Source of the DNA: Faecalicatena orotica
Lineage (GTDB): Bacteria; Bacillota; Clostridia; Lachnospirales; Lachnospiraceae
Assembly (NCBI RefSeq): GCF_003149245.1
Contig: NZ_QGDL01000007.1
Coordinates: forward strand, 243,218 to 307,217
Direction of reading: 5' to 3'
DNA length: 64,000 nt
The notes beneath the pieces are model-generated. The model had not been told where the DNA came from. It saw only the letters and a program-made list of their open reading frames with translations, and ran no database searches. Positions 1,925-60,525 of this stretch are shown here, in pieces (position 1 is the first letter of the stretch; every line of letters starts with the position of its first letter). The translations under genes and the position numbers were made by a program.

Positions 1925-2640
1925 ATGACTTCTATAAAAGCAATGCAGAATAACGCCGTAGATAAAGGACGGCTGCAGATCAATGTGACATCGGACATTA
2001 CATCTTTTCCTGTATCGGGTGCTAGTATCACGATATCATATACAGGAGTGCCGGACAGTACACTAGAACAGCTGAGCACGGATGCATCGGGTCAGACAGA
2101 AGAAGTGGAACTGGCTACGCCGCCTCTTGAATACAGTCTGAATCCATCTATTGAAGAGATGCCATATGCCGAATACACATTTGATGTCAGCGCACCGGGA
2201 TTTGAACCAGTCAGTATATCAGGCGCAGAGCTTCTGCCGGAAGTGAAGGCAATACAGAATGTAAGGCTGCGTCCGAGCGAACAGCAGCAAAATGAGGAAG
2301 TGTTCGTGATTCCCGCACATACCCTGTACGGAGAGTATCCGCCGAAGATAGCGGAGGAGGAGATCAAGCCGATCAATGAGACCGGGGAGATCGTGCTGAG
2401 CAGGGTCGTTGTGCCTGAATATATTGTTGTCCACGACGGATCTCCGAGAGACACCACGGCACAGAACTATTATGTAAAATATAAGGACTATATTAAAAAT
2501 GTCGCATCCAGTGAGATCTACGCAACCTGGCCTGCCGACACCATACGGGCAAACGTGCTGGCTATTATGTCCTTTACATTGAACCGCGTATACACGGAGT
2601 GGTCACTCCGTATAAGGTCATTCAGGGTCATAGTAAGGTA
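1925..2640 (+). pseudogene. sleC: Spore cortex-lytic enzyme SleC-type, N-terminal part (interrupted)
   Basis: N-terminal 226 residues of a SleC-type cortex-lytic enzyme, which degrades cortex peptidoglycan during germination. The opening GRLQINVTSD, the domain with TPPLEYSLNP, and the run IYATWPADTIRANVLAIMSFTLNRVYTEW match the family. The authentic sequence stops at Trp 226 (2600-2602). The frame then continues 12 codons into the inserted element and ends at TAG 2638-2640. The start at 1925 is chosen for the GAGG upstream; ATG 1904 is possible but lacks a site. The other half of the gene is 10.7 kb away at 13262-13846 in a compatible frame. There are no other lesions, so the gene is interrupted rather than decayed. 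Confidence 0.88.
2588..2617 (+). other. attL: left junction of the sleC-interrupting element
   Basis: sleC coding sequence ends and element sequence begins at the dinucleotide GT 2602-2603. It is centred in a perfect inverted repeat GGAGTG-GT-CACTCC (2596-2609). The only identity shared with the right junction is GGT (2601-2603 and 13260-13262), as expected for a large serine recombinase, which needs a 2-bp core. Confidence 0.8.
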
Positions 2641-2775
2641 GTAAAACAGCCAGAAATAAATACATCTAATGGTCTGGCTTCCTATATGCTCATGCACAGT
2701 TGCCGGAATCTGATTATCAATGAATTGATTATCAAGATATTAAGTAAATCTAAATATTCTATCGAATATAAATAA
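2602..2775 (+). other. Detached alternative 3' end of the serine recombinase gene
   Basis: From the GT core at 2602 one frame stays open for 57 codons, starting VTPYKVIQGHSK and ending in SKYSIEYK before TAA 2773-2775. That stop is followed at once by a terminator. The frame is exactly the one in which the recombinase frame would arrive if the element were circular (codon TCG 13258-13260, then GTC 2602-2604). In the integrated state this piece has no start of its own. It is inferred to be the native C-terminal tail of the recombinase in the excised circle. Confidence 0.7.
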
Positions 2776-2776
2776 G

Positions 2777-2815
2777 AATACCCTCTAATTTCTCTTAAAA
2801 GGGTATTTTCTTTCA
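2777..2815 (+). terminator. Terminator after the detached recombinase tail
   Basis: AATACCCT pairs with AGGGTATT around a 15-base loop, followed by TTCTTTC. It lies directly behind the TAA at 2775, fitting the 3' end of the recombinase gene in the circular form. Confidence 0.65.
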
Positions 2816-2866
2816 ATTTTCACGTTGTGCAATTTTCACAAATATTTATGCGTTTCATGGCAATAA

Positions 2867-2911
2867 AATCCGTTTTTCAGTTCGTTTAAGCTGTAAAACG
2901 GATTATTTTTT
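2867..2911. terminator. Strong hairpin with T tract
   Basis: AATCCGTTTTTCAG pairs with CTGTAAAACGGATT, followed by ATTTTTTG. This is a typical intrinsic terminator, and the A-rich left side means it may act in both directions. It insulates the left end of the element from the reverse transcriptase unit. Confidence 0.75.
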
Positions 2912-3126
2912 GTGCAATATAGTGAAAACATTGAATTATCAGACAATATTTCAAATAGTCAGACTCGTTAACAGTAATGAAAGCAACACGAGCAGGGAGG
3001 TGACATGTTTGATTTACAGATGTAATTCACATAATATTATCTCAAATGTACGAGGACCACCGATACGAAATGTATAATCAGCAGACGTTTGAGTAGAACT
3101 TTTGAAAGGAGATAAGCAAAAAGAGC
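2912..3126 (+). other. Leader region before the reverse transcriptase
   Basis: 215 bases without a gene of convincing size. A good ribosome site (GGGAGGTG) precedes a six-codon frame, ATG 3004 to TAA (MFDLQM). No group II intron 5' end (GTGYG) or domain V was seen. It might encode a short leader or a structured RNA working with the reverse transcriptase; this is not established. Confidence 0.3.
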
Positions 3127-4377
3127 ATGAAAATGTATACTACTCCTGACAAAGCTAGTCGTTGGGAAGATATTAACTTCAAAATGGCAGAGCAAAAGGT
3201 TAAAAAGCTGCAAAAGCGTATTGCTGTGGCTTTTGGGAACGATGATTTTGATAAAGTTGCATTGTTGCAGAATATGATAATACATTCGTTTTATGCTAAA
3301 GCCTTAGCGGTGAAAATAGTTACTTCTAATAGAGGCAGATACACTGCCGGAATTGATAATGTTGTATGGATTACTCCTGAGGAGAAATTTGATGCAATAT
3401 ACAATTTATCCCGTAGGGGTTATAAGGCTATGCCATTGAAACGGATATTCATACCGAAGTCCAATGGAGATATGCGACCTCTAAGTATACCTACGATGAA
3501 GGACAGAGCTATGCAGACTTTATATAAGTTTGTATTGGAACCAATCGCAGAGTTTACAGGTGATATGGATTCCTATGGCTTTCGTCTGAATCGTTCTGCT
3601 AAAGATGCAGTTGTAAGATATATTGATATACTATTGAACTTTCCATATCTTAAATGGGTTATGAAAACAGATATTAAATCATGTTTTGATAATATAAGCC
3701 ATGAATGGGTGATGAAACATATCCCTATGGATAAAGAAATATTACTTAAATTTCTGAAATGTGGATATATGAGCCATTCGGTATATCATCCGACTGAAAA
3801 AGGAGTCCCGCAAGGTGGGAGTATATCTAATGTCATTTGTAATATGGTTCTTGATGGGTTGGAAATTTGCCTTGATGACCACTTTGGCAGTTCTCTATAT
3901 ATGATTCGATATGCTGATGATATTGTCATCGTTGCTGATAGCCAAAAAATTTTGGTACAATCGGTTGTCGCTGTGATTGAGCATTTCTTGTTGGAGCGTG
4001 GTTTACAACTCTCACAGGAGAAAACTATGGTTTCCCATGTGGAAAATGGAATCATTTTTCTCGGATTTGAGATATACCGAGAAAATAAAGTAGTAGTCTG
4101 TGTACCAGCAAGGAAAAGTGTAACTTCTCTAATGAGTAAAGTGGACTGTATTTTGTCTGCTGTATCAAAGGTATATTTTGATAAGATACCTGATGAAATA
4201 CTGTGGAAGTTATGTAATTCCTTAAAATTGGTCATAAGGGGGTGGTTAAATTATTATGCAGATATAGTAACTACACAATCTCTTCGTGATGTAAAATATG
4301 AACTTGTTTCTCAAGTAAACAAATCAACAGGAGATAACCGCATTGCAGAATTTATAAAAAAACTTTTTAAAAAATAA
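3127..4377 (+). CDS. Free-standing group II-like reverse transcriptase
   Basis: 416-residue RNA-directed DNA polymerase. RT motifs appear in order: TAGIDNVVW (RT1), IFIPKSNGDMRPLSIP (RT2), YGFRLNRSAKDAV (2a), KTDIKSCFDNI (RT3), GVPQGGSISN (RT4), IRYADDIVIV (RT5, catalytic YADD), FLGFEI (RT7). A maturase-like thumb with RGWLNYYAD follows. The QGG of RT4 and the X domain place it with group II intron RTs, not with diversity-generating retroelements or retrons. There is no C-terminal HNH nuclease and no intron RNA around the gene. The ribosome site (AAGGAGA) is about 14 bases upstream, rather far. The next gene begins 15 bases downstream. Role unknown; stand-alone RTs in mobile islands often serve in defence. 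Confidence 0.85.
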   Translation: MKMYTTPDKASRWEDINFKMAEQKVKKLQKRIAVAFGNDDFDKVALLQNMIIHSFYAKALAVKIVTSNRGRYTAGIDNVVWITPEEKFDAIYNLSRRGYKAMPLKRIFIPKSNGDMRPLSIPTMKDRAMQTLYKFVLEPIAEFTGDMDSYGFRLNRSAKDAVVRYIDILLNFPYLKWVMKTDIKSCFDNISHEWVMKHIPMDKEILLKFLKCGYMSHSVYHPTEKGVPQGGSISNVICNMVLDGLEICLDDHFGSSLYMIRYADDIVIVADSQKILVQSVVAVIEHFLLERGLQLSQEKTMVSHVENGIIFLGFEIYRENKVVVCVPARKSVTSLMSKVDCILSAVSKVYFDKIPDEILWKLCNSLKLVIRGWLNYYADIVTTQSLRDVKYELVSQVNKSTGDNRIAEFIKKLFKK

Positions 4378-4392
4378 AAGGGGGACATAATA

Positions 4393-4632
4393 ATGTCAAA
4401 AATAATGAAAAAAAATAATGCAAGAGTCGAAGAAAGAGATTTCAGGGATTCCATCGAATTCTGGAGATACAAGGATGAAGTACTTGGTGATATTTTAGAA
4501 GCACAAAACTATTTTATGGAAGTGATACTAGCAATTGAAGAAGTTCCATCACTAAGGATATTTGAACATTCATTGGTCTCAGGGTATGATGAACTTATTA
4601 AAGCAATATATGATCTTTGCTCCCCTAAATAG
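4393..4632 (+). CDS. 79-residue protein downstream of the reverse transcriptase
   Basis: Small, charged, probably helical protein, not recognised. It follows the RT by 15 bases with a good ribosome site (AGGGGG), so the two are probably co-transcribed and may work together. It has no membrane segment, cysteine motif or obvious DNA-binding motif. It does not resemble the Avd accessory protein in length. Confidence 0.6.
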   Translation: MSKIMKKNNARVEERDFRDSIEFWRYKDEVLGDILEAQNYFMEVILAIEEVPSLRIFEHSLVSGYDELIKAIYDLCSPK

Positions 4633-4639
4633 AGATTTA

Positions 4640-4690
4640 ACAGCCGTTAAAATCGAAAGCATTACGATTTCAACGGCTGTTTCTTGTAGT
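4640..4690 (+). terminator. Terminator after the RT operon
   Basis: ACAGCCGTT..AAATCG pairs with CGATTT..AACGGCTGT (4640-4680), followed by TTCTTG. It ends the two-gene RT unit. Confidence 0.75.
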
Positions 4691-5163
4691 GTTTTTGATG
4701 TAAAGAATACGTAAGTTCCTTCTGGCTCAAATCACATTTCTTTCGGTATTCTTTTTACCAATTCAGGACTTATCATTCTTTGTTCCCATATGTTCACTAC
4801 CTTTACACATAGTATTAGCGAGTATTAATATATATCTAATAATATTAGGTGTTGATTTCAGTTAGTAATTGTTTCATAGTAGATATCCCTTTCTCTTAGG
4901 CGTAATCTCCTTTTTAACCCTGTTATGCTATTACCTTGGTAATTCTCCACACAAGTAATGTTCTTTTCATCTAGGTTAGATGTCCTTTGTTCTACATGGT
5001 AATCTGACAGTTTCAGAATACTTACGCTGAACAAAATGAAAACAGTCTTAGAATGGCTCTGCATATATACAAGGTTTTTATAGGGATTTCTAGATTTTGA
5101 TGGGTGTTTATCTATAAAACAATGTATAATTATCAACCTATATATTTCGTTTGTGAAAATCTA
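4691..5163. other. Non-coding stretch inside the element
   Basis: About 470 AT-rich bases between the RT terminator and the XRE gene. The only long frame (complement of 4858-5136) has no ribosome site and an unlikely composition. No structured RNA or repeat was recognised. It may be a remnant or the site of an unrecognised small RNA. Confidence 0.3.
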
Positions 5164-5508
5164 CTATGATGATATTTTTTGTATTTCTTTTTCCTGATGA
5201 TTTATCCGTACAAAGACTTTGCATTGTTCAATACAAATGTACTTCTGTTCTTCTGTTAAAGAACGAAAAATCCGCAGTAATTCACTTTCTTGATGTGTAT
5301 TAGTTTTTTTCGTACAGTGATCTAACAGATAATCAATAGAAACATCGAAATACTCTGCTAATAGTTTTAAAGTAGAAAAATCTGGTTCACGTGTATTCTG
5401 AACGTAACTTCCCATTGTAGACGGAGCTATGTTTAAATATGTAGCCAATTCTTTTTGCGTCATATTCCGTTCTTCAATCAAAGTACGTAAGTTATTGCCA
5501 AAACTCAT
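5164..5508 (-). CDS. XRE-family transcriptional repressor
   Basis: 114-residue Cro/CI-type regulator. The N-terminal helix-turn-helix covers about residues 9-60 (MTQKELATYLNIAPSTMGSY, then REPDFSTLKLLAEYFDVSIDYLL), with a short helical tail. A strong ribosome site (AGGAGG) precedes the ATG. It is divergent from the four-gene operon starting at 5662. Two copies of a 16-bp semi-palindrome lie between them and overlap the operon promoter, so it probably represses the operon and itself. Confidence 0.85.
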   Translation of the reverse strand: MSFGNNLRTLIEERNMTQKELATYLNIAPSTMGSYVQNTREPDFSTLKLLAEYFDVSIDYLLDHCTKKTNTHQESELLRIFRSLTEEQKYICIEQCKVFVRINHQEKEIQKISS

Positions 5509-5566
5509 GTCATTTACCTCCTATCTCTCTCACATTTTAATTGATAGGTATTGTAATTTCCCTAGT

Positions 5567-5610
5567 AACTACTATACGAGTTGACAAACTACTATACGAG
5601 TTATAGAATA
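5567..5610 (+). promoter_or_regulatory. Operon promoter with two XRE operator candidates
   Basis: AACTACTATACGAGTT occurs twice, at 5567-5582 and 5587-5602, exactly 20 bp apart. Each copy is a semi-palindrome (AACT..TATA..AGTT). A sigma-A promoter TTGACA (5581-5586), 17-bp spacer and TAGAAT (5604-5609) overlaps both copies, so a bound repressor would block it. Confidence 0.7.
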
Positions 5611-5661
5611 TAATTAACATATCTTACTTTTTAAAAATCATACAAAAGAGAGGAAATCACA

Positions 5662-6516
5662 ATGAGAGCATACATAGAGAATATTAGCAAAATAGTCGAA
5701 CAAATGGATATTCAGTTACGAACAAATCTATTAATAAAGGATGGTCAGATTCAAGAGAAAAAATTGTGGGAAAATACGTATATTAAACACCAAAAAGATA
5801 GGCGAGATAGAAAAGAGGGATTTTCCATTAGCGACCACATCCGAGGGATGGTGTATGCAATGTTAAGTTCAGGGATTGCATGGGAACGGGTTGAAAATAG
5901 TATTGATATATTGACCGGAAAAATAGAAACAATAGATGAAATCTTTCATCAATATAATCCTCAGATACTATTGGAATGTTCTCCAGAAGAATTAAGTGAT
6001 AAAGTAAAGCATCTTCACTGTGCAAGTCAGAGTACAAAAAAGCAAATGAACGGATTGATACATACAAACATTGAGAAGTTAATGCAGTTAGAAAAAGAAT
6101 ACGATAGTATTGACGGTTTTTATCAAAGATTTATTGATAAAGACAGTTCATACAAAACATTGATAAAAACACTTTCCGATTCCGACAGTGTGAATAAAAT
6201 GGTAGAAATGGGAGAAGCCTTAAACGCTGAATATTTGCGTAATGTAGGTTATGACATGGCAAAACCTGACAGGCATATCCGAAGAATTTTAGGAAGTAAT
6301 GTACTAGCTTGTTCAGAACATGAAATAGTTCCATTATTTCAAACCTTTGATATAGTCAAAGATATTGCAGATGAATTAGGAAAATCTGTGGCAGAGGTTG
6401 ATTATATTCTATGGTCTTACTGCTCAAAAGGTTATGGGGAAGTATGTACAGTAATTAACCCCAAGTGTAGTATATGCGTTGCCAGACAGATTTGTAGAAA
6501 ACATGTTGAAAAATAA
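5662..6516 (+). CDS. EndoIII-like [4Fe-4S] HhH-GPD protein, divergent
   Basis: 284 residues, first gene of the XRE-controlled operon. The C-terminus has cysteines 262, 269, 272 and 278 in the spacing C-x6-C-x2-C-x5-C, exactly the iron-sulfur loop of endonuclease III and MutY. KPDRHIRRIL around residue 203 matches the segment with the catalytic Asp of HhH-GPD glycosylases. The usual LPGVGxKTA hairpin with catalytic lysine is not visible, and the N-terminal ~150 residues are unlike classical Nth. It is probably a DNA-binding or base-excising enzyme adapted to a special role. The next gene starts 9 bases downstream. A housekeeping Nth is unlikely given the length and location. Confidence 0.7.
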   Translation: MRAYIENISKIVEQMDIQLRTNLLIKDGQIQEKKLWENTYIKHQKDRRDRKEGFSISDHIRGMVYAMLSSGIAWERVENSIDILTGKIETIDEIFHQYNPQILLECSPEELSDKVKHLHCASQSTKKQMNGLIHTNIEKLMQLEKEYDSIDGFYQRFIDKDSSYKTLIKTLSDSDSVNKMVEMGEALNAEYLRNVGYDMAKPDRHIRRILGSNVLACSEHEIVPLFQTFDIVKDIADELGKSVAEVDYILWSYCSKGYGEVCTVINPKCSICVARQICRKHVEK

Positions 6517-6525
6517 AGGGGGATT

Positions 6526-7242
6526 ATGATGGTTGAAAATAAATATTTATTATACTCTCATTACGGCATAAAAGAAAATGCTACCTGTTCAGAGATCATA
6601 GTAAGGGCTGCGAAAAAATCTTATCTGGAATTTTGCAGAAGGGTTTCATTCGAGAAAAATATATCTGTAGATGACAGACGAACGTTTGAGTTTGAAGTTG
6701 AGAAGTTACTGGCTAATATGATTCCAAGATTAATAGAAGAAATCGTAAATGAGGATGAAAATCAAGAGTTATTTGACAGAAAACATAATGAAATATGTGA
6801 AGCAATCATTAACATATATAGTGGAGTGGGTGGACAATCGTATGGAATAGCGCAAAGATGGCTGAATCTAACATTGATGAATTTAGTTGTTATTTCTTCT
6901 AATCTTGAAGCAGATTATCTACATATTAAGAATGCTAGAAAATATTTTCATGTTCCGGTAGAGCAATATTTGTTAGAAGCGGCTACAACCAGATATAAAA
7001 ATAGATTTCAGCATGGCTTAAATCTGAAATATGCGCCGTTAAAACATGATAAGGCGTATAGTTATCAGATGGATTGGTTCTGTCCGGGGAAAACACAGCC
7101 ATTTGAATATTGGGAATATCCAGAGTATATAGAATTTCAATATGCTGTAAGAAACAAATTGAAAGAAGTCCCCATAAATCAAAACTATTGTGATTCTCTG
7201 GATTGGGCTTTCAAGTCTTTTATAGAAGTGTCGCAAGCTTGA
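6526..7242 (+). CDS. Uncharacterised 238-residue protein, partner of the EndoIII-like protein
   Basis: Not recognised. It is a predicted cytoplasmic, mostly helical protein without signal peptide or membrane segment. The middle contains GQSYGIAQRWLNLTLMNL, and the C-terminal half has many aromatic residues (YSYQMDWFCPGKTQPFEYW). It starts 9 bases after the EndoIII-like gene with a strong ribosome site (AGGGGGATT); ATG 6529 is an equally good start. The tight coupling suggests that the two proteins work together. Confidence 0.6.
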   Translation: MMVENKYLLYSHYGIKENATCSEIIVRAAKKSYLEFCRRVSFEKNISVDDRRTFEFEVEKLLANMIPRLIEEIVNEDENQELFDRKHNEICEAIINIYSGVGGQSYGIAQRWLNLTLMNLVVISSNLEADYLHIKNARKYFHVPVEQYLLEAATTRYKNRFQHGLNLKYAPLKHDKAYSYQMDWFCPGKTQPFEYWEYPEYIEFQYAVRNKLKEVPINQNYCDSLDWAFKSFIEVSQA

Positions 7243-7264
7243 AATAAATAGGAGGTATGTGATA

Positions 7265-8785
7265 TTGAGTGAATTAACTAAGGGAAGAAAAGAAGAGATA
7301 AAAAGTTTTATTGTTGAGAATAATGTCAGTACCTTGACAAAAGGTGACGTTGAAATTAATGCAAAAAATTTTCCAGACAAAATATTCAGAGACTATATAA
7401 CCACAAACTTTGACAAAGATAATAACGGTGTTTTGACACAAGATGAAATCAATTCAATAACGGAATTTAATGTTAAAGATAATTACCAGATTACTAGTTT
7501 GGATGGAATCGAGTATTTTCCTGCTCTGACAACTTTAAAATGTGCCAGAACTAAAGTTGCACGATTGGATGTCAGCAGGAATACTTCTTTGGAATATTTA
7601 GATTGTTCAGAAACACAAATAGTAGAATTGGATATTAGGGAGAATATATCTTTAAAAGTGTTACGCTGTTTTCTAACCGGAATTAAAAAGTTAGATGTCA
7701 GCAGGAATACTTCTTTGGAATATTTAGGCTGTTTCTATACAGAAATTGCAGAGTTGGATATTAGCCGAAATATTTTTTTAAAATGTTTAGAATGTTCTAA
7801 CACAGCAATTTCAGAACTGGACGTTAGCAAAAATACTATTTTGGAAAATTTAAACTGTGCTAATACAGAAATTACAGAGTTAGATGTCAGCAGAAATATA
7901 TCTTTGAAAAATTTACACTGTGATGATACAAAAATCACAGAGCTAGATGTCAGTCAAAATACTTCTTTGAAATGGCTAGACTGTTCTCGGACACAAATTG
8001 CAGAGCTAGATGTCAGCAAAAATACTTCTTTGGAAGTCCTAAACTGTAGTGGTACAAAAATCATAGCATTGGATGTCAGCAGAAATATATCTTTGGTAGA
8101 GTTATACTGTCCAGAAACTGAAATTGCAGAGTTAAATATTCGTAGGAATAATTTTCTGGGATTTTTAAAATGTGGTGATACAAATATAACAGAATTGGAT
8201 GTTAGCAAGAATACTTCTTTAAAACAGTTAGACTGTTCCTGGACACAAATTGCAGAGCTAGATGTCAGTAGAAATACTTCTTTAAAAAGGTTACAGTGTT
8301 CCAATACGAAAATTACAGAGTTAGATGTCAGCAGAAATATATCTTTGAAAAATTTATACTGTGATGATACAAAAATCACAGAGCTAGATGTCAGTCAAAA
8401 TACTTCTTTGGAATGGCTAGACTGTTCCTGGACAGAAATTGCAGAGCTAGATATCAGCAAAAATACTTCTTTGGAATGTTTAGACTGTAATCATACAAAA
8501 CTAAAAGAACTAGATAACAGTAGGAATACTTCTTTGGAATGTCTAGACTGTGGTGATACAAAAATCACAGAGCTAAATGTTAGCAAGAATACTTCTTTAA
8601 AACAGTTATATTGTTCCTGGACAGAAATTGCAGAGCTAGATATCAGCAAAAATACTTCTTTGGAATGTTTAAAATGTAATAATACAAAACTAAAAGAACT
8701 AGATGTCAGTAAGAGTACTTCTTTAAAACAGTTAGACTGTTCCGGTACACAATTAGTTATAAGGGAGTGTAAAAATGAAGAGTAA
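7265..8785 (+). CDS. Cytoplasmic leucine-rich-repeat protein with 19 identical-length repeats
   Basis: 506 residues. The N-terminal ~30 residues are charged. Next comes INAKNFPDKIFRDYI and the EF-hand-like loop FDKDNNGVLTQDE, then a cap TSLDGIEYFPALTTL, then 19 tandem 21-residue repeats of the type ELDVSKNTSLKxLDCSxTxI, ending eight residues before the stop. Bacterial surface proteins often carry this EF-hand/LRR arrangement, but here there is no signal peptide, membrane segment or wall anchor, so it appears cytoplasmic. The start TTG 7265 is preferred because AGGAGG lies nine bases upstream; GTG 7259 is too close. Third gene of the operon. It is probably a recognition or scaffold protein; the target is unknown. 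Confidence 0.75.
   Translation: MSELTKGRKEEIKSFIVENNVSTLTKGDVEINAKNFPDKIFRDYITTNFDKDNNGVLTQDEINSITEFNVKDNYQITSLDGIEYFPALTTLKCARTKVARLDVSRNTSLEYLDCSETQIVELDIRENISLKVLRCFLTGIKKLDVSRNTSLEYLGCFYTEIAELDISRNIFLKCLECSNTAISELDVSKNTILENLNCANTEITELDVSRNISLKNLHCDDTKITELDVSQNTSLKWLDCSRTQIAELDVSKNTSLEVLNCSGTKIIALDVSRNISLVELYCPETEIAELNIRRNNFLGFLKCGDTNITELDVSKNTSLKQLDCSWTQIAELDVSRNTSLKRLQCSNTKITELDVSRNISLKNLYCDDTKITELDVSQNTSLEWLDCSWTEIAELDISKNTSLECLDCNHTKLKELDNSRNTSLECLDCGDTKITELNVSKNTSLKQLYCSWTEIAELDISKNTSLECLKCNNTKLKELDVSKSTSLKQLDCSGTQLVIRECKNEE
7562..8758 (+). repeat. 19 tandem 63-bp repeats in the LRR gene
   Basis: Nineteen consecutive units of exactly 63 bp with no insertion or deletion. Variation is concentrated in the codons flanking the invariant Cys (xLxCxxT). 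Units 6-7 (7877-8002) and 13-14 (8318-8443) are almost identical over about 120 bp, which indicates expansion by recombination between units. Confidence 0.9.
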
Positions 8786-9161
8786 TGTAAAAATGTTTTC
8801 CCCCTGTGTTGGAAACTGGTGGTATACGGACAATGGGCAGGTATGGGGAATATATTGTTCTTTGAATGACGCTGTATTAAATGGTTCATACCGTCAATTC
8901 AGCATGTCTGACAATCATATGACCCTGTGGAGAAAAGTTGTAGAAGATTATATAGAAAATGAGGAAGAACAAAAACATGTTTATGCTCTTGGATATGATG
9001 TATATGAACATGGAAGTGTTGTCTATGATCTAAGAACACAATGCTTTTATATTATTTGCAGTGAAACTATCTATAATAATCTGATAGCGAGAAAGGCAAT
9101 AAAATCTGCATTTGGTCTCAATGGATGTAATATTGATTTTCAAAGAGTATCTCTCACATAA
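8775..9161 (+). CDS. Uncharacterised 128-residue protein, last gene of the operon
   Basis: Not recognised. It overlaps the end of the LRR gene by 11 bases, so it is translationally coupled. It contains NWWYTDNGQVWGIY near the N-terminus and HVYALGYDVYEHGSVVYDLRTQCFYI in two β-rich stretches; no membrane segment is seen. As the most downstream gene of the XRE-controlled operon it may be an accessory or effector of the LRR protein. Confidence 0.55.
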   Translation: MKSNVKMFSPCVGNWWYTDNGQVWGIYCSLNDAVLNGSYRQFSMSDNHMTLWRKVVEDYIENEEEQKHVYALGYDVYEHGSVVYDLRTQCFYIICSETIYNNLIARKAIKSAFGLNGCNIDFQRVSLT

Positions 9162-9284
9162 CAAAAAGTAGTTATTATAGACTATTTGAATTTTGCAGAT
9201 AATTCAACAAACATAATTATTACAAGAAATCTTTCTGCTATAAAAATAAACATCTCTTTTTGTTTATATTTCTTAAGAATCCAG

Positions 9285-9320
9285 AACAACCGTAATCATA
9301 TCCGATTGCGGTTGTTTTTT
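9285..9320 (+). terminator. Terminator of the XRE-controlled operon
   Basis: AACAACCG-AATC pairs with GATT-GCGGTTGTT, followed by a T run. Confidence 0.75.
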
Positions 9321-9344
9321 ATCCCCTATATATAAAAGAAACAG

Positions 9345-9373
9345 TTGACCCCTTTTCGTTTATATCTTATAAT
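9345..9373 (+). promoter_or_regulatory. Sigma-A promoter of the small serine recombinase
   Basis: TTGACC, 17-bp spacer, TATAAT, about 33 bases before the start codon at 9406. Confidence 0.75.
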
Positions 9374-9405
9374 ACGTAAACATTAACTAAAGATGAGGTG
9401 GTAAA

Positions 9406-9996
9406 ATGATTTACGGTTATGCCAGATGTTCAACAAATGAGGAATTACAGGATATCCAACGACAGGTTAGGGAATTAAAACAATTAGGTGCTACAGAGGA
9501 AACTATATATTTGGAGTATGAAAGCGGAACAAAGACGAACCGGGCGGAACTCTTTAAGTTATTAAATGTAGTGAAACACGGTGATACTATTCTTACCACA
9601 GAGGTCAGTCGTATAACCCGTAGTACAAAACAACTTTGTGATATTATAGAACTTGCAAAAGATAAACAGATTAAATTAATTATAGGGAGTTTCGTAGTTG
9701 ATTGCAGTAAGGAACTTGACCCCATGACAGAGGGAATGTTGAAAATGATGGGAGTATTTGCTGAACTTGAAAGGAATATGATAAGTCAGAGGGTGAAAAG
9801 CGGAATGGAAAATGCAAAATCTAAAGGAAAGATTATTGGCAGACCGGTTACTACTGTAGACAATATTCCAAGTGTTTTCTATAAGCATTACCCCAAATAC
9901 AAAAAAGGTGAAATCAATAAAAAAGATTTCTCACGGCTATGTTCTCTTTCCTATCCTACGATTTACAAATATTTAAGCATGGTAGAGGATGTTTAA
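9406..9996 (+). CDS. Small serine recombinase (resolvase/invertase family)
   Basis: 196 residues. The catalytic domain begins IYGYARCST with active-site Ser 9; conserved DRLTR-like and FAELERNMISQRVKSGM segments follow, then a GRP hinge and a C-terminal helix-turn-helix (about 160-190). Enzymes of this class resolve cointegrates or invert DNA between short sites. It has its own promoter. No invertible segment or res site was recognised nearby, so its function in the element is open. Confidence 0.88.
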   Translation: MIYGYARCSTNEELQDIQRQVRELKQLGATEETIYLEYESGTKTNRAELFKLLNVVKHGDTILTTEVSRITRSTKQLCDIIELAKDKQIKLIIGSFVVDCSKELDPMTEGMLKMMGVFAELERNMISQRVKSGMENAKSKGKIIGRPVTTVDNIPSVFYKHYPKYKKGEINKKDFSRLCSLSYPTIYKYLSMVEDV

Positions 9997-10007
9997 AGTG
10001 ACGCTTG

Positions 10008-10036
10008 TTGAATTTAGAGGTTCTTTTGTGTATAAT
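10008..10036 (+). promoter_or_regulatory. Sigma-A promoter of the nucleotidyltransferase pair
   Basis: TTGAAT, 17-bp spacer, TATAAT, 29 bases before the ATG at 10065. Confidence 0.65.
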
Positions 10037-10064
10037 AGTAAAAAACAGATAGATTGGAAATGTT

Positions 10065-10364
10065 ATGTGTTCAGAAAAAACAGGAATACGCAAGCAAGTT
10101 TTAGAAGAAATTATAGATTTAGCAAAGTTTTATGATCTTTCACGGGTTATATTGTTTGGCTCGAGAGCCAGAGGGGATTATCTGAAAAAAAGTGATATTG
10201 ATTTAGCGGTAGAGGGGAAGAATATCGTGGACTTTGCATTGGATGTGGATGAGAAAACAGATACCTTGTTGCAATATGACATTGTAGATATGTCAAAAGC
10301 AGATGAAGAATTATTGAAAAATATCAGAAAGGATGGAATTACATTATATGAGAAAATTCGATAA
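10065..10364 (+). CDS. MNT-type nucleotidyltransferase (HI0073/MntA-like)
   Basis: 99-residue minimal nucleotidyltransferase. The active-site pattern GSRARGDYLKKSDIDLAV gives the GSxxRG motif and the DxD pair. Proteins of this family transfer nucleotides, or AMPylate a partner in MNT/HEPN toxin-antitoxin pairs. It overlaps the next gene, which encodes the classical partner, so they probably form a complex. Inside a mobile element the pair may help maintenance or act against phages. Confidence 0.8.
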   Translation: MCSEKTGIRKQVLEEIIDLAKFYDLSRVILFGSRARGDYLKKSDIDLAVEGKNIVDFALDVDEKTDTLLQYDIVDMSKADEELLKNIRKDGITLYEKIR

Positions 10365-10743
10365 TTATTGTAGCAATTTGGCTGTTTTGGAGAAAGCATA
10401 TAAAGAAGATATTCAGAATGAATTTATTGTTTCAGGTATTATAGATAAGTTTTCCGTTCAATTTGAACTTGGATGGAAAGTGTTGAAGGAATTAGTTCTA
10501 TATGAAGGCAGTTCAATTGGAAAGACAGGCTCACCGAGAGATATTATTAAAGAAGCCTATCGCATATTTGATTTTATGGATGAAACTATTTGGCTTCATA
10601 TGCTGAAAGACAGAAATGATACAAGCCATGTATATAATGGAAATATGGCAAAAGAACTGGCGGCAAGAATCCTGAAGGAATATATTCCGGTATTTGTGTC
10701 AATAAGGGAGAGCATACTAAGCAAATATAAGGATTATTTGTAA
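10348..10743 (+). CDS. Nucleotidyltransferase substrate-binding protein, HI0074 family
   Basis: 131 residues, helical. Begins MRKFDNYCSNLAVLEKAY; contains FELGWKVLKELVLYEG and GSPRDIIKEAYR and then LKDRNDTSHVYN, all typical of the HI0074/HEPN-like partners of MNT proteins (TIGR01987 type). An upstream in-frame ATG at 10333 exists, but the family normally starts near 10348. It overlaps the nucleotidyltransferase gene. The HEPN RNase motif R-x4-6-H appears as RNDTSH, so toxicity is possible. Confidence 0.75.
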   Translation: MRKFDNYCSNLAVLEKAYKEDIQNEFIVSGIIDKFSVQFELGWKVLKELVLYEGSSIGKTGSPRDIIKEAYRIFDFMDETIWLHMLKDRNDTSHVYNGNMAKELAARILKEYIPVFVSIRESILSKYKDYL

Positions 10744-10801
10744 AATATATTTGGTGTTATATTACTCAGATTTAAGAATAACATATTTGATGATTATCAA
10801 C

Positions 10802-10839
10802 AAAAAACCACTTTGAGATTCGTTTCAAAGTGGTTTTTT
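10802..10839. terminator. Terminator after the MNT pair
   Basis: AAAAACCACTTTGA pairs with TTCAAAGTGGTTTTT around a GATTCG(T) loop. A/T tracts on both sides make it potentially bidirectional. Confidence 0.85.
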
Positions 10840-11086
10840 GTGCATTATGACGAAATACAAATTTTCAGGTCTTTTTTCTTCTAAATACAAACTTGTACGA
10901 ATATAACAATGAATACAGTTATTAAGTAAAAAAAGGACGGTGTCATAATATGTTTGATAGTAGTTAATACACAACAGAATTTCAAAACCACAGAAAAAAT
11001 TATAAGGACCATTTCAGATTGTCTTTCTCCTTGCGGTTCTCCGCAAAACTAAAGGCATCAACAATAATTTTTATTGGAGGTGCTCT
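10840..11086 (+). other. Non-coding leader before the recombinase cassette
   Basis: About 250 bases with no convincing gene. A five-codon frame starts at ATG 10951 after GGACGG. A small hairpin TTGCGG-TTCT-CCGCAA lies at 11031-11046. The promoter of the recombinase cassette should be here, but neither a clear sigma-A nor a clear sporulation promoter could be assigned by eye. Confidence 0.3.
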
Positions 11087-11230
11087 ATGAAAAGGAATCA
11101 TTTCAAAAACTTATCTTTATTTCTCCCTTGGAAAGAACATATAATAACATCATATTACTTAAAGGGATTCCGCTTATCACATCATAAGGTATATAGCTGT
11201 GCGAGTTTGGAGGTGTGTTATGGATTCTAA
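11087..11230 (+). CDS. 47-residue ORF at the head of the recombinase cassette
   Basis: A small basic protein (MKRNHFKNLSLFLPWKEH...) with an ideal ribosome site TTGGAGGT seven bases before the ATG. Its stop overlaps the start of the next gene (ATG 11220), a layout typical of translational coupling. It is not recognised. It could be a real small protein, a recombination directionality factor, or only a leader peptide. Confidence 0.45.
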   Translation: MKRNHFKNLSLFLPWKEHIITSYYLKGFRLSHHKVYSCASLEVCYGF

Positions 11231-11501
11231 AATAACAACTCTCCCCGGAAATCCAGACGAATACTCTGGCTCTGGTATAAATGAATGTGACAAGTCTGCT
11301 CGGAATATTTATGTAATAAGCAGTAAACCAACGGAGCAGGCAATGTCAGAATCAATCTATAAGAAGTTAGAAGCAGAAAGAGAGGGATTCAAGGTTATTA
11401 TTGAATTTCCCGATAATTCGGATGATGAAGCAGTTATACATGAAGAGATTAAACAGATTTTATCAAATCTTCTTCAAGAACAAATGATGAAAATTTCATA
11501 A
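11220..11501 (+). CDS. 93-residue protein upstream of the large serine recombinase
   Basis: Small acidic protein; not recognised. The start ATG 11220 is preferred over GTG 11199 because GGAGGT lies just upstream. The N-terminal part (TLPGNPDEYSGSGI) looks unstructured, and the C-terminal half is helical (HEEIKQILSNLLQEQMMK). It lies 67 bases before the recombinase, with a hairpin between. Position makes it a candidate directionality or regulatory factor of the recombinase, but the sequence does not prove that. Confidence 0.55.
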   Translation: MDSKITTLPGNPDEYSGSGINECDKSARNIYVISSKPTEQAMSESIYKKLEAEREGFKVIIEFPDNSDDEAVIHEEIKQILSNLLQEQMMKIS

Positions 11502-11509
11502 CTTATCAT

Positions 11510-11534
11510 AGAGCAGAGGATTTTCCTCTGCTCT
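11510..11534 (+). terminator. Perfect 11-bp hairpin between the 93-residue ORF and the recombinase
   Basis: AGAGCAGAGGA-TTT-TCCTCTGCTCT with only ATTCAAAAAT following. The missing T run makes it a partial terminator or an mRNA-stability element. It could lower recombinase expression relative to the upstream ORFs. Confidence 0.5.
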
Positions 11535-11568
11535 ATTCAAAAATCATTTAAGAAAGGGTGTAAAAATC

Positions 11569-13344
11569 ATGAAAAAACAACAGGAGAAAAAGGTAGTACG
11601 AATATTATTACGTGTAAGTTCAGACCAACAGTTAGAAGCCGATGGTGACTTAGGTATTCAACGAGAGATTGTTATAGAAGATATAAGGCAACATTCTGAC
11701 TGGATATTGGATTCCAAGGAATATTTTGAGGGAAGTAACAGTGGATATAAAAATTCTATCACTGACAGAGATGTCCTGCAAGAAGCATTAAGAGATGCTG
11801 AAAATGGGGAATATGATATATTGGCTGCCTATAAAGATGACCGGCTTGGAAGAAGAATGTTTGAAGTACCTGTCTATATCATGTCGTTAAAAAATTTTGG
11901 AGTTGATGTCTATACAGTCAAGGATAAAATGATTACCCCTCAAAACCCAAATGATGTTACAGAACTAATGATGTTGACCATGCGCTATGGGATGGCTCAA
12001 AAAAGTAGTTCTGATACTGGTCTCAGGGTAAGAGATACTGCACAGAAATTGGTTCAGCAAGGGAGATTTTTAGGTGGGAAGGCCCCTTATGGTTATAGAT
12101 TTGAACTTTCCGATATTATAACCAAACGTCAGCGGATGATAAATCAACTTGTTATAGTTCCTGAACAAGCTGAGGTAGTGAAATACATTTATAACCTATC
12201 TTTTCACAAAGAGTTTGGTTCTGGAAAAATTGCAAGTACACTGAATGAAGATGATAGATATAGAGCAATGGCGCCAAACGACGTATGGAAAAGTGGAACA
12301 ATCACCAGTATACTCACAAATCCAATTTATGCAGGTTATCCCACATATAACAGGCGTCAATCTTTAAATGGGAAACATCGCAGTTTAAATAGAGAAGATT
12401 GGACCTATTCGGAAATACAAATCGAAGAATATATTATTATAGAACAGGAATTATGGGAAAAGGTTCAAATCAAGAGGACTGAGAGAGCTAAAAAGTATGT
12501 CAAAAATCCAAAGAACGAAGGAGCTACTGTAATTTCAAGAAATGACGGAATGCTGGCTCTGATTGATGTAGCTTATTGTGGTTATTGCGGACGTAAAATG
12601 ACAAATGGAACAAAATATGACTACTGGACAATTAAAGCTACAGGAGAAAGAAGAACATCCAAGAAGGCTATTTATAAGTGTCAGAATGTATGGCAGGGGG
12701 TTCCCCATGAACCTTGGAAACAGATTCGGGCAGATAAGGTTGAACCGATTGTGTTTGGAGCCCTTGCAGAATATATTGGCAAGTTACAGGAAAATGAAAA
12801 TGTATTTGAACAGATTATGGACAACCAAAATAAAGAAAAGAAACAGCAGGAAAGAAAGCTATTGCAGGAGAAGCAGAAGCTTGATACTATTAAAAAGAAT
12901 ATTGATATAATGGAAGATAAAATTCCAGAAGCTATGACAGGTACTTATATCCTATCTCTTGAGGATTTAGTACATAACATAGAAAAACAAAAGCAGAATG
13001 AACAGAAACAGGCAGAAATTGTAGAACAGATAGAAACGGAATTACAAAATACTACGGTATCCATTGATGATTGGGAAACCCTCCGAAGTAAAATTCCTAC
13101 ATGGCAGGAAATATTTTTAAGTGCGGATACACCTACAAAGCGTGTTCTTGTTAATAAACTGATTGAGCGTATAGATATGACAGAGGATGAGGTGGTTATC
13201 CGGTTTAAAATCAACCTTGATAACTTCCTAACACAATCCCGAATGACCGATAACGAATCGGTACAGGAACAAAGGATACGATTTTACAATTACATCCTCT
13301 ACTGCATTCGACCACAAATGGATACCGGAAAGAAACGTATTTGA
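11569..13344 (+). CDS. Large serine recombinase (integrase/excisionase of the element)
   Basis: 591 residues. The N-terminal resolvase domain has RVSSDQQ with catalytic Ser 17, followed by YKDDRLGRRMFE. The recombinase domain contains GGKAPYGYRF and LTNPIYAGYPTYNRR. A zinc-ribbon has YCGYCGRKM with a later YKCQN, then come a coiled coil (KEKKQQERKLLQEKQKLD...) and a C-terminal domain. Large serine recombinases of this kind integrate and excise phages and elements at short att sites. The last 27 residues (13261-13341) are encoded by host sleC DNA read out of frame. In the excised circle they would be replaced by a 57-residue tail from 2602-2775, giving 621 residues. Confidence 0.93.
   Translation: MKKQQEKKVVRILLRVSSDQQLEADGDLGIQREIVIEDIRQHSDWILDSKEYFEGSNSGYKNSITDRDVLQEALRDAENGEYDILAAYKDDRLGRRMFEVPVYIMSLKNFGVDVYTVKDKMITPQNPNDVTELMMLTMRYGMAQKSSSDTGLRVRDTAQKLVQQGRFLGGKAPYGYRFELSDIITKRQRMINQLVIVPEQAEVVKYIYNLSFHKEFGSGKIASTLNEDDRYRAMAPNDVWKSGTITSILTNPIYAGYPTYNRRQSLNGKHRSLNREDWTYSEIQIEEYIIIEQELWEKVQIKRTERAKKYVKNPKNEGATVISRNDGMLALIDVAYCGYCGRKMTNGTKYDYWTIKATGERRTSKKAIYKCQNVWQGVPHEPWKQIRADKVEPIVFGALAEYIGKLQENENVFEQIMDNQNKEKKQQERKLLQEKQKLDTIKKNIDIMEDKIPEAMTGTYILSLEDLVHNIEKQKQNEQKQAEIVEQIETELQNTTVSIDDWETLRSKIPTWQEIFLSADTPTKRVLVNKLIERIDMTEDEVVIRFKINLDNFLTQSRMTDNESVQEQRIRFYNYILYCIRPQMDTGKKRI
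13246..13275 (+). other. attR: right junction of the element
   Basis: Element sequence ends and sleC resumes at GT 13261-13262. Upstream is ACGAATCG (element), downstream ACAGGAACAAAGG (sleC, reading YRNKG). It shares only GGT with attL. It lies inside the recombinase coding region. Confidence 0.8.
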
Positions 13345-13846
13345 TACGATTTCCGTGATTGTAGATGAGTTATTTGCCGACTATCTGTCCCGCCCAAATG
13401 TAAGACAGCCGATTCTGACACAGTACTGTGACGGCCGGAGGGTAAGTTGTCCAAACTGGATGACACAATGGGGTTCAAAAGCCCTTGGTGACCAGGGGTA
13501 TACCCCGATCGAAATTCTCAGATACTATTACGGGGACGACATGTACATCAACACCGCCCAGGAGATATCCGGAATCCCGTCATCATGGCCGGGATATACC
13601 CTTGAGATAGGATCCAGTGGCGATAAAGTAAGACAAATGCAGGAACAGTTAAATGTCATAGCAGGGGCATACCCCGCAATTCCGAAAATAGAGGCCGACG
13701 GAATATACGGCCCGGCTACGGCAGCATCCGTAGAAGTATTTCAGTCCGTATTCGGATTACCACAGACAGGAACAGTTGATTACCGGACATGGTACAAAAT
13801 ATCCGAGATATACGTTGGAGTATCAAGAATAGCAGAATTAGTGTAA
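13262..13846 (+). pseudogene. sleC: Spore cortex-lytic enzyme SleC-type, C-terminal part (interrupted)
   Basis: 194 residues that complete the N-terminal piece at 1925-2602. The sequence begins YRNKGYDFTITSSTAFDHKW and runs through SVIVDELFADYL, LTQYCDGRRVSCPNWMTQWGSKALGDQGY and the C-terminal peptidoglycan-binding domain (LEIGSSGDKVRQMQEQLN ... IPKIEADGIYGPATAASVEVFQ). The first 83 bases overlap the recombinase gene in another frame. A GTG at 13355 could start a shorter protein, but nothing suggests that it is expressed. Fusion with the left half gives 420 residues, close to the normal family length. Separately it has no promoter. Confidence 0.88.
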
Positions 13847-31464: not shown

Positions 31465-31483
31465 TAAGAACGATGATATGAAA

Positions 31484-31568
31484 AAGGGGAGCCTGCGTAA
31501 GCAGGCTGAGAGTAAGCTGGTATTGCTTAGACCCGTAACCTGATTTGGATAATGCCAACGTAGGGAGA
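31484..31568 (+). ncRNA. TPP riboswitch (THI element)
   Basis: Contains the conserved aptamer parts: GGGGAGCCTGCG, CTGAGA, ACCCGTAACCTGAT, GGATAATGCCA and TAGGGA in the right order. It senses thiamine pyrophosphate and controls thiE downstream through the terminator at 31588-31630. Confidence 0.97.
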
Positions 31569-31587
31569 TATGGAAGCAGACTTTGCG

Positions 31588-60359: not shown

Positions 60360-60378
60360 AAATGTGGAATTAAATAAG

Positions 60379-60467
60379 ACAGGGGTGCTGGTGTAAACCG
60401 GCTGAGAGTAAGGTAAACAGACCTTTAACCCGTATACCTGATCTGGATAATGCCAGCGTAGGAAAGT
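60379..60467 (+). ncRNA. TPP riboswitch
   Basis: AGGGGTGCTGG, CTGAGAG, ACCCGTATACCTGAT, CTGGATAATGCCAGCG, GGAAA in the conserved order of the THI element. It heads the transporter operon 60635-63457. Confidence 0.97.
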
Positions 60468-60525
60468 AGATATACAGAGTATACTTATAGAATAAAGAAG
60501 TTTTATAAGACATATGAAGCATGCG

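Follow-up and report, generated by a model that had tools for sequence, protein, structure and literature searches.

A skin-like element splits sleC in Faecalicatena orotica and belongs to a family of elements inserted at the same site in related genomes

Introduction

Sporulation genes in which an interruption is named in the available portions of earlier reports include sigK, spsM, spoVFB, spoVR, gerE and yabG (PMC10747680, PMC4191935, PMC5595907). Here, we describe an element carrying its own large serine recombinase (LSR) that splits the cortex hydrolase gene sleC in Faecalicatena orotica. The locus lies in a 64,000-nucleotide stretch of DNA, referred to as the window (contig NZ_QGDL01000007.1, positions 243,218 to 307,217), within a draft genome of 5.72 Mb assembled in 32 contigs. 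This site-specific element splits the only sleC that was found there, and we consider it likely that, in the terminal mother cell, the LSR excises it at a GT core and rejoins sleC, while the forespore chromosome retains the element.

The sleC element resembles the skin element in sigK of Clostridioides difficile (CD1231, CD1234) and Bacillus subtilis (SpoIVCA), in that a sporulation gene is split by an element bearing an LSR and precise rejoining is expected (PMC5025042). Excision of C. difficile skin, in the attL x attR direction, depends on the LSR CD1231 together with CD1234, a protein of 72 amino acids (aa), and a small partner protein is likewise predicted for the sleC element (PMC5025042). 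The target of skin is a sigma factor, whereas here it is a cortex hydrolase, the gene for which is a sigma-K target in C. difficile; mother-cell excision has been shown for skin, whereas it is predicted for the sleC element (PMC5025042).

The gin element in gerE of Bacillus cereus ATCC10987 is similar in that no phage genes are seen in its cargo, and none were seen in the cargo of the window element (PMC5595907). An LSR and a small protein, GirC and GirX, rejoin gerE, and the sleC element carries an LSR and a small gene (PMC5595907). Unlike the sleC elements, which span 2 to 18 kb and often encode one LSR, gin is 28.6 kb long, encodes three serine recombinases and interrupts a transcription-factor gene (PMC5595907). 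Elements that are prophage-like also reside within sporulation genes as yin in yabG (C. botulinum), SP-beta in spsM (B. subtilis), vfbin in spoVFB and vrin in spoVR; in the available portions of these reports, however, sleC is not a named target and no series of elements at one site across dozens of species is described (PMC10747680, PMC4191935). In the main text of a large LSR survey, sleC is not mentioned (PMC10083194). As the first-pass annotation of this DNA had surmised, no report of an element in sleC was found in the open-licence literature; one may be in print elsewhere.

Results and Discussion

Two parts of sleC lie on the forward strand of the window. The 5' part (1925-2602, 226 codons) was recognized by homology to intact sleC of relatives, and the 3' part (13262-13846, 194 codons) encodes a peptidoglycan-binding domain that scored over the PG_binding_1 cut-off. 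The interruption falls between a Trp codon, TGG (2600-2602), and a Tyr codon, TAC (13262-13264), and by arithmetic the joined parts encode 420 residues from 1925. A second in-frame ATG is present at 1904, and in the numbering of that frame the match of the 5' part to intact relatives extends to residue 233. A TGCATATA-type -10-like box on the forward strand (1886-1895), common to 47 loci (no shuffled control was run) and presumably part of a promoter, lies too near to the ATG at 1904, and 1925 is therefore the better start. The intact sleC protein of a genome of the same genus (G148) matched the solved SleC pre-pro-form 9h68 (E 6.2e-135), and homology to this structure together with the C-terminal peptidoglycan-binding domain identifies the gene as sleC. 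The break point is inside a stretch with a weak SpoIID-domain match, under the cut-off of that family.

Sequence searches of the window genome recovered a single sleC 5' part (E<=10) and a single 3' part (E<=1e-5), and found no further sleC copy. Five relatives, including one from the same genus, have an uninterrupted sleC, and all five read through the junction without a gap or extra residue. Thus, a precise in-frame empty site exists in relatives.

The intervening element was delimited by comparing its junctions with those of other loci. The two ends of the window element have GGT in common, and 49 left and 61 right junctions elsewhere narrow the shared core to GT, giving a unit of 10,659 bp between the two cores (2603-13261). 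The cores lie at 2602-2603 in attL and 13261-13262 in attR, for which we take probable extents of 2577-2629 and 13235-13287 on the forward strand. Left ends of other loci read TGGTA in 47 of the 49 cases, with TGGTG and TTCTA once each, and the window has TGGTC; all 61 right ends fit xGTA(C/T). When the ends of 35 elements were joined, the arms were symmetric about the core at a mean of 15.4 of 26 positions, compared with 6.6 in shuffled sequence. The element ends therefore make a symmetric attP.

The element has a GC content of 33.4%, compared with 48.2% for the flanking DNA, and encodes a 591-aa LSR (11569-13344, forward strand), whose Resolvase and Recombinase domains scored over their cut-offs and which was aligned with 12 relatives. 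Its zinc-ribbon domain scored 21.8 bits, under the cut-off of 25.3, and the window genome holds one copy of this LSR (E<=1e-5). The LSR reading frame crosses attR and stops about 80 bp within the sleC 3' part, so that in the integrated state the last LSR codons and the stop come from host DNA; in the circle, they would come from the opposite element end. These findings uphold the layout drawn in the first-pass annotation, namely sleC halves flanking an AT-rich element with an LSR and a GT at which joining restores the frame with no residue gained or lost. That annotation had named a second intact sleC, with no empty site in relatives, as one of the outcomes that would speak against its proposal; no second sleC was found, and there are five empty sites. 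It had also suggested a search of relatives for intact sleC and for the same insertion point, and both were found.

The insertion is shared by many genomes, and the window element, first noted as a single case, proved to be one of a family. Among 397 genomes of the window's family, the sleC 3' part matched 259, and 12 carried an LSR relative at E<=1e-60. All 12 have, beside the LSR, a sleC part that is broken at the junction (about 1 kb off in G319). A second collection, which overlaps the first, was obtained by scanning the genome_contigs database with an alignment of these 12 LSRs, the best 80 of 117 stretches yielding 79 loci. A sleC part broken at the junction was found around the LSR in 76 of the 79, no more than 150 bp from the LSR match in 68 of those 76. 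Two more loci (L096 and L097) end inside the sleC 5' part, bringing the count to 78 of 79, and in L129 the LSR is truncated by the contig end. Since the query was built from sleC-linked LSRs and 37 weaker relatives were left out, the link holds for this LSR clade only.

The LSR and sleC are collinear in 54 of the 76 loci and opposed in 22. Complete elements in the DNA flanking these loci (n = 34) range from 2,696 to 15,544 bp; others measure 9,364 bp in G104 and 18,097 bp in G319, and the smallest, of about 1.96 kb, splits a sleC paralogue of G315 and contains only an LSR and a small gene. By record title, the carriers are largely Lachnospiraceae genera, with a few metagenome records named otherwise (Bacteroidales, Bacillus). 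Cultured carriers include Sellimonas caecigallum SW451, a member of Lachnospiraceae, as well as Mediterraneibacter catenae SW178, Schaedlerella arabinosiphila DSM 106076 and Hespellia stercorisuis DSM 15480. Among the matches listed, two of ten short sleC frames (G192 and G324) showed no interruption at this point. The recurrence of the junction in dozens of other genomes excludes chance, and the window element is one member of a family of elements at sleC.

The split parts of sleC are preserved. Of the 49 5' parts, two sit at a contig edge, and the 47 readable ones are all open to the junction. The 3' parts number 61, with one at a contig edge; 52 of the 60 readable ones are full length, and eight end after 70 to 105 residues. 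In all eight of these genomes the missing remainder was located: in three it lies 57.8 to 66.0 kb downstream, on the same strand of that contig, and in five it is on another contig. Thus, sleC is in three pieces in L079, L080, L084, L087, L094, L112, L121 and L126 (genomes G397-G404), the second break point lying near the residues CPNWM/L in six and after GSKYLGD in two. Another LSR, of 488 aa, adjoins the sleC remainder in G397.

Selection on the sleC parts was estimated from five species pairs in which both members carry the element. Across 1,500 codons, the pooled ratio of nonsynonymous to synonymous rates (dN/dS) was 0.032; nonsynonymous differences numbered 43, compared with a crude figure of about 1,061 expected without selection. 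Three pairs were not pooled: L106/L108, which showed no differences, and L103/L118 (dN/dS 0.032) and L066/L123, both with unlike LSRs. In the five pairs, dS was 0.17 to 1.05 for the LSR and 0.23 to 0.77 for sleC; as these are of the same order, they fit inheritance of the split state. Constraint was measured in relatives, and for the window itself the evidence consists of the open frames: comparison with the intact same-genus sleC, at dS 1.89 for the 5' part and saturated for the 3' part (dN 0.105 and 0.048), is too distant. The strong constraint on the sleC parts indicates that the gene is assembled and in use. The statement in the first-pass annotation that the halves carry no other damage is in keeping with these results.

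Directly before the LSR of the window element is a small gene of 52 aa (11343-11501, forward strand; longest frame 11199-11501). BLAST clustering placed such a gene directly before the LSR in 30 of 37 complete elements, a count that includes a second copy far from the LSR in L082. Inspection by eye of the other seven found it in six, with L124 doubtful. A profile built from 13 of the small proteins found the gene in 77 of 82 loci, and two of the five misses lack upstream DNA. Searches of Pfam and PHROGs for a known family gave stray weak matches, to one member each, and none of 44 database relatives of the small protein bears a functional name. Because C. difficile skin requires a small directionality protein, the small gene is the best candidate for such a role (PMC5025042), and we refer to it as a candidate recombination directionality factor.

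A conserved 34-nt motif, found de novo, precedes the small gene (11283-11316, forward strand). Its log-likelihood ratio was 509.7 over 40 restarts, compared with 106 to 118 in four shuffled sets given 12 restarts each. At a score of at least 12, it was present in 51 of 75 loci, exactly 60 nt from the small-gene core in 18 of the 51 (range, 48 to 135). TGTGACAAG occurs within the window copy, and for CD1234 of C. difficile the published motif is TGTAACAAT (PMC5025042). Motifs upstream of native spoIVA and sigK differ in look from the 34-nt motif, which seemingly is private to the elements. It may be a SpoIIID box within a sporulation promoter, as it was first read, but in a search of 22 genomes no class of host promoter carried the motif. 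Coding constraint as its source is disfavored, since the small-gene frame through the motif is stopped in L069 and L080. The promoter comparisons drew on consensus sequences for the sigma factors and on the SpoIIID consensus of B. subtilis; the highest-scoring sigma pattern before the LSR or small gene was of the forespore type (z 3.95).

The sporulation genes of the hosts were surveyed in 13 genomes, comprising the 12 with the element and G148. spoIVA scored over its cut-off in all 13. The sigK model scored over cut-off in four, including the window genome, and just under it in seven; the gene is split in G032, and the match in G042 is weak only. In G032, the two parts of the sigK-type gene (C1:57063-57341 and 82751-83101) are 25.4 kb apart, probably reflecting a skin element beside the sleC element in the same genome.

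The element is skin-type by anatomy and constraint: it is inserted within a gene, an empty site exists, it combines a recombinase with att sites, and the gene parts are kept functional. This agrees with the skin-like layout proposed in the first-pass annotation, to which can be added the symmetric attP, the empty sites and the presence of spoIVA and a sigK-type gene in the host. Its broader interpretation was supported in part: the anatomy stood, whereas the recombinase module showed no clear mother-cell promoter. Excision itself, and its confinement to the mother cell, we infer. In the proposed mechanism, integration of the circle into intact sleC (attP x attB) would require only the LSR, and the LSR with the small protein would carry out the reverse reaction (attL x attR), as do CD1231 and CD1234 for C. 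difficile skin (PMC5025042). Precise excision at the GT core would take place as cells sporulate, in their terminal mother cell, so that sleC would be rejoined for the spore and the element retained in the forespore chromosome.

Several observations count against developmental excision. No excised junction or circle was seen, each genome being represented by one assembled state. Low dN/dS shows that the gene is used and does not show when excision occurs; the sleC 3' part of the unpooled pair L066/L123, in which the LSRs are unlike, had a higher dN/dS of 0.165, and among the 11 genes of an intact-sleC control, no pair fell below the dS limit. Mother-cell, forespore and vegetative sigma patterns before the LSR or small gene were without clear enrichment (z -1.2 to 4.0, compared with 2.3 for a control motif). 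The 34-nt motif, in addition to having no counterpart among the host promoter classes of the 22 genomes, is absent from 24 of 75 loci, among them that of the minimal element (about 1.96 kb), and an exact-pattern search of those genomes found it at seven places, three of them in sleC elements, compared with three for a reversed control. Lastly, the window genome has three Hydrolase_2 (SleB/CwlJ-type) domains besides sleC, and SleC may thus not be the sole cortex hydrolase.

Some of these observations would also be expected of an ordinary phage-derived element for which sleC is a harmless attachment site. Excision at low frequency in any cell would then be enough, with a few restored cells or other cortex hydrolases sufficing for germination, and Hydrolase_2 domains other than sleC are present in all 13 genomes. 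In line with such an origin, the elements clearly move between hosts: LSR identity and sleC identity are weakly correlated (r 0.12 over 53 loci), and L065 and L066 have LSRs that are 100% identical and sleC 3' parts that are 91% identical. LSR relatives also occur on nine viral contigs. Among three close ones, L143 and L144 also carry sleC parts, and L145, from a contig of 145.7 kb, encodes an LSR at 55% identity with an apparently uninterrupted attP-like site after it, and with no sleC match within the 21.7 kb examined. These contigs suggest that phages targeting the sleC site exist; searches of named phages and plasmids gave no LSR that reached 60% identity (190 and 68 records, respectively, had weaker matches). 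The lack of promoter evidence for sporulation control fits this explanation as well. However, strong constraint on sleC while split through speciation requires regular use, and the minimal element, with an LSR and the small gene only, has no other apparent mobile function. We therefore regard a phage-derived element without developmental control as unlikely, if a serious contender.

Permanent inactivation of sleC by the insertion, with decay of the halves, is much less probable still. The catalytic region is cut and a second sleC was not found, as this explanation would have it, but frames are unbroken in 47/47 and 52/60 of the readable parts, the other eight are continued elsewhere, and the deficit of nonsynonymous differences (43 against the crude expectation of about 1,061) contradicts decay at the level of the family. 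An assembly artefact, which the draft state of the 32-contig window assembly might favor, has a negligible chance of explaining the locus, given the same junction in independent assemblies that include the single-contig G319 and the 3-contig G104.

Beyond the window, developmental excision could extend to a general scheme that in our judgment is as easily wrong as right. In this scheme, sleC of Lachnospiraceae would be assembled by DNA splicing, through a dedicated LSR and a small directionality protein, from elements that reach down to 2 kb and resemble introns at the DNA level. Their removal would be restricted to the mother cell and would take place at one, two or three positions in the gene, and a germination-competent spore would be gated by a mobile element spread across the family.

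If developmental excision is true, developmental gene rearrangement would not be limited to a few Bacillus and Clostridium genes. It would recur across a family of anaerobes and act on germination, the step that lets spores regrow, and it would account for a seemingly broken germination gene in dozens of genomes. The elements would also provide a compact module of LSR and partner with a known natural target, and a direct way to test how the timing of a mobile element is tied to a terminal cell. Genome-based predictions of sporulation and germination will score sleC as broken where it is possibly working.

The remainder of the window element is occupied by cargo genes, all on the forward strand except one. 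A reverse transcriptase close to group II maturases (3127-4377) scored over cut-off for RVT_1 and RVT_N and reached 281.6 bits for TIGR04416, under the cut-off of 300; no match to group II intron RNA was found around it at E 0.1 or better. A helix-turn-helix regulator (HTH_3 over cut-off) lies on the reverse strand at 5164-5508. It is followed by a protein of which part gave a weak match to OGG-like DNA glycosylases (5662-6516; PADLOC OGG, E 2.2e-8), a leucine-rich-repeat protein (7259-8785; LRR_4 over cut-off) and a small serine recombinase of 196 aa (9406-9996; Resolvase domain over cut-off). Open reading frames related to the OGG-like protein were found in 4 of 37 elements, as were those related to the small serine recombinase. 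Two overlapping genes at 10065-10743 encode a nucleotidyltransferase (Polbeta/NTP_transf_2 over cut-off) and a substrate-binding partner (NTase_sub_bind over cut-off), a pair that we take to be MNT/HEPN-like. A search of the window cargo for defence systems gave partial matches only. Elsewhere in the window, two thiamine pyrophosphate (TPP) riboswitches are located at 31475-31583 and 60371-60482.

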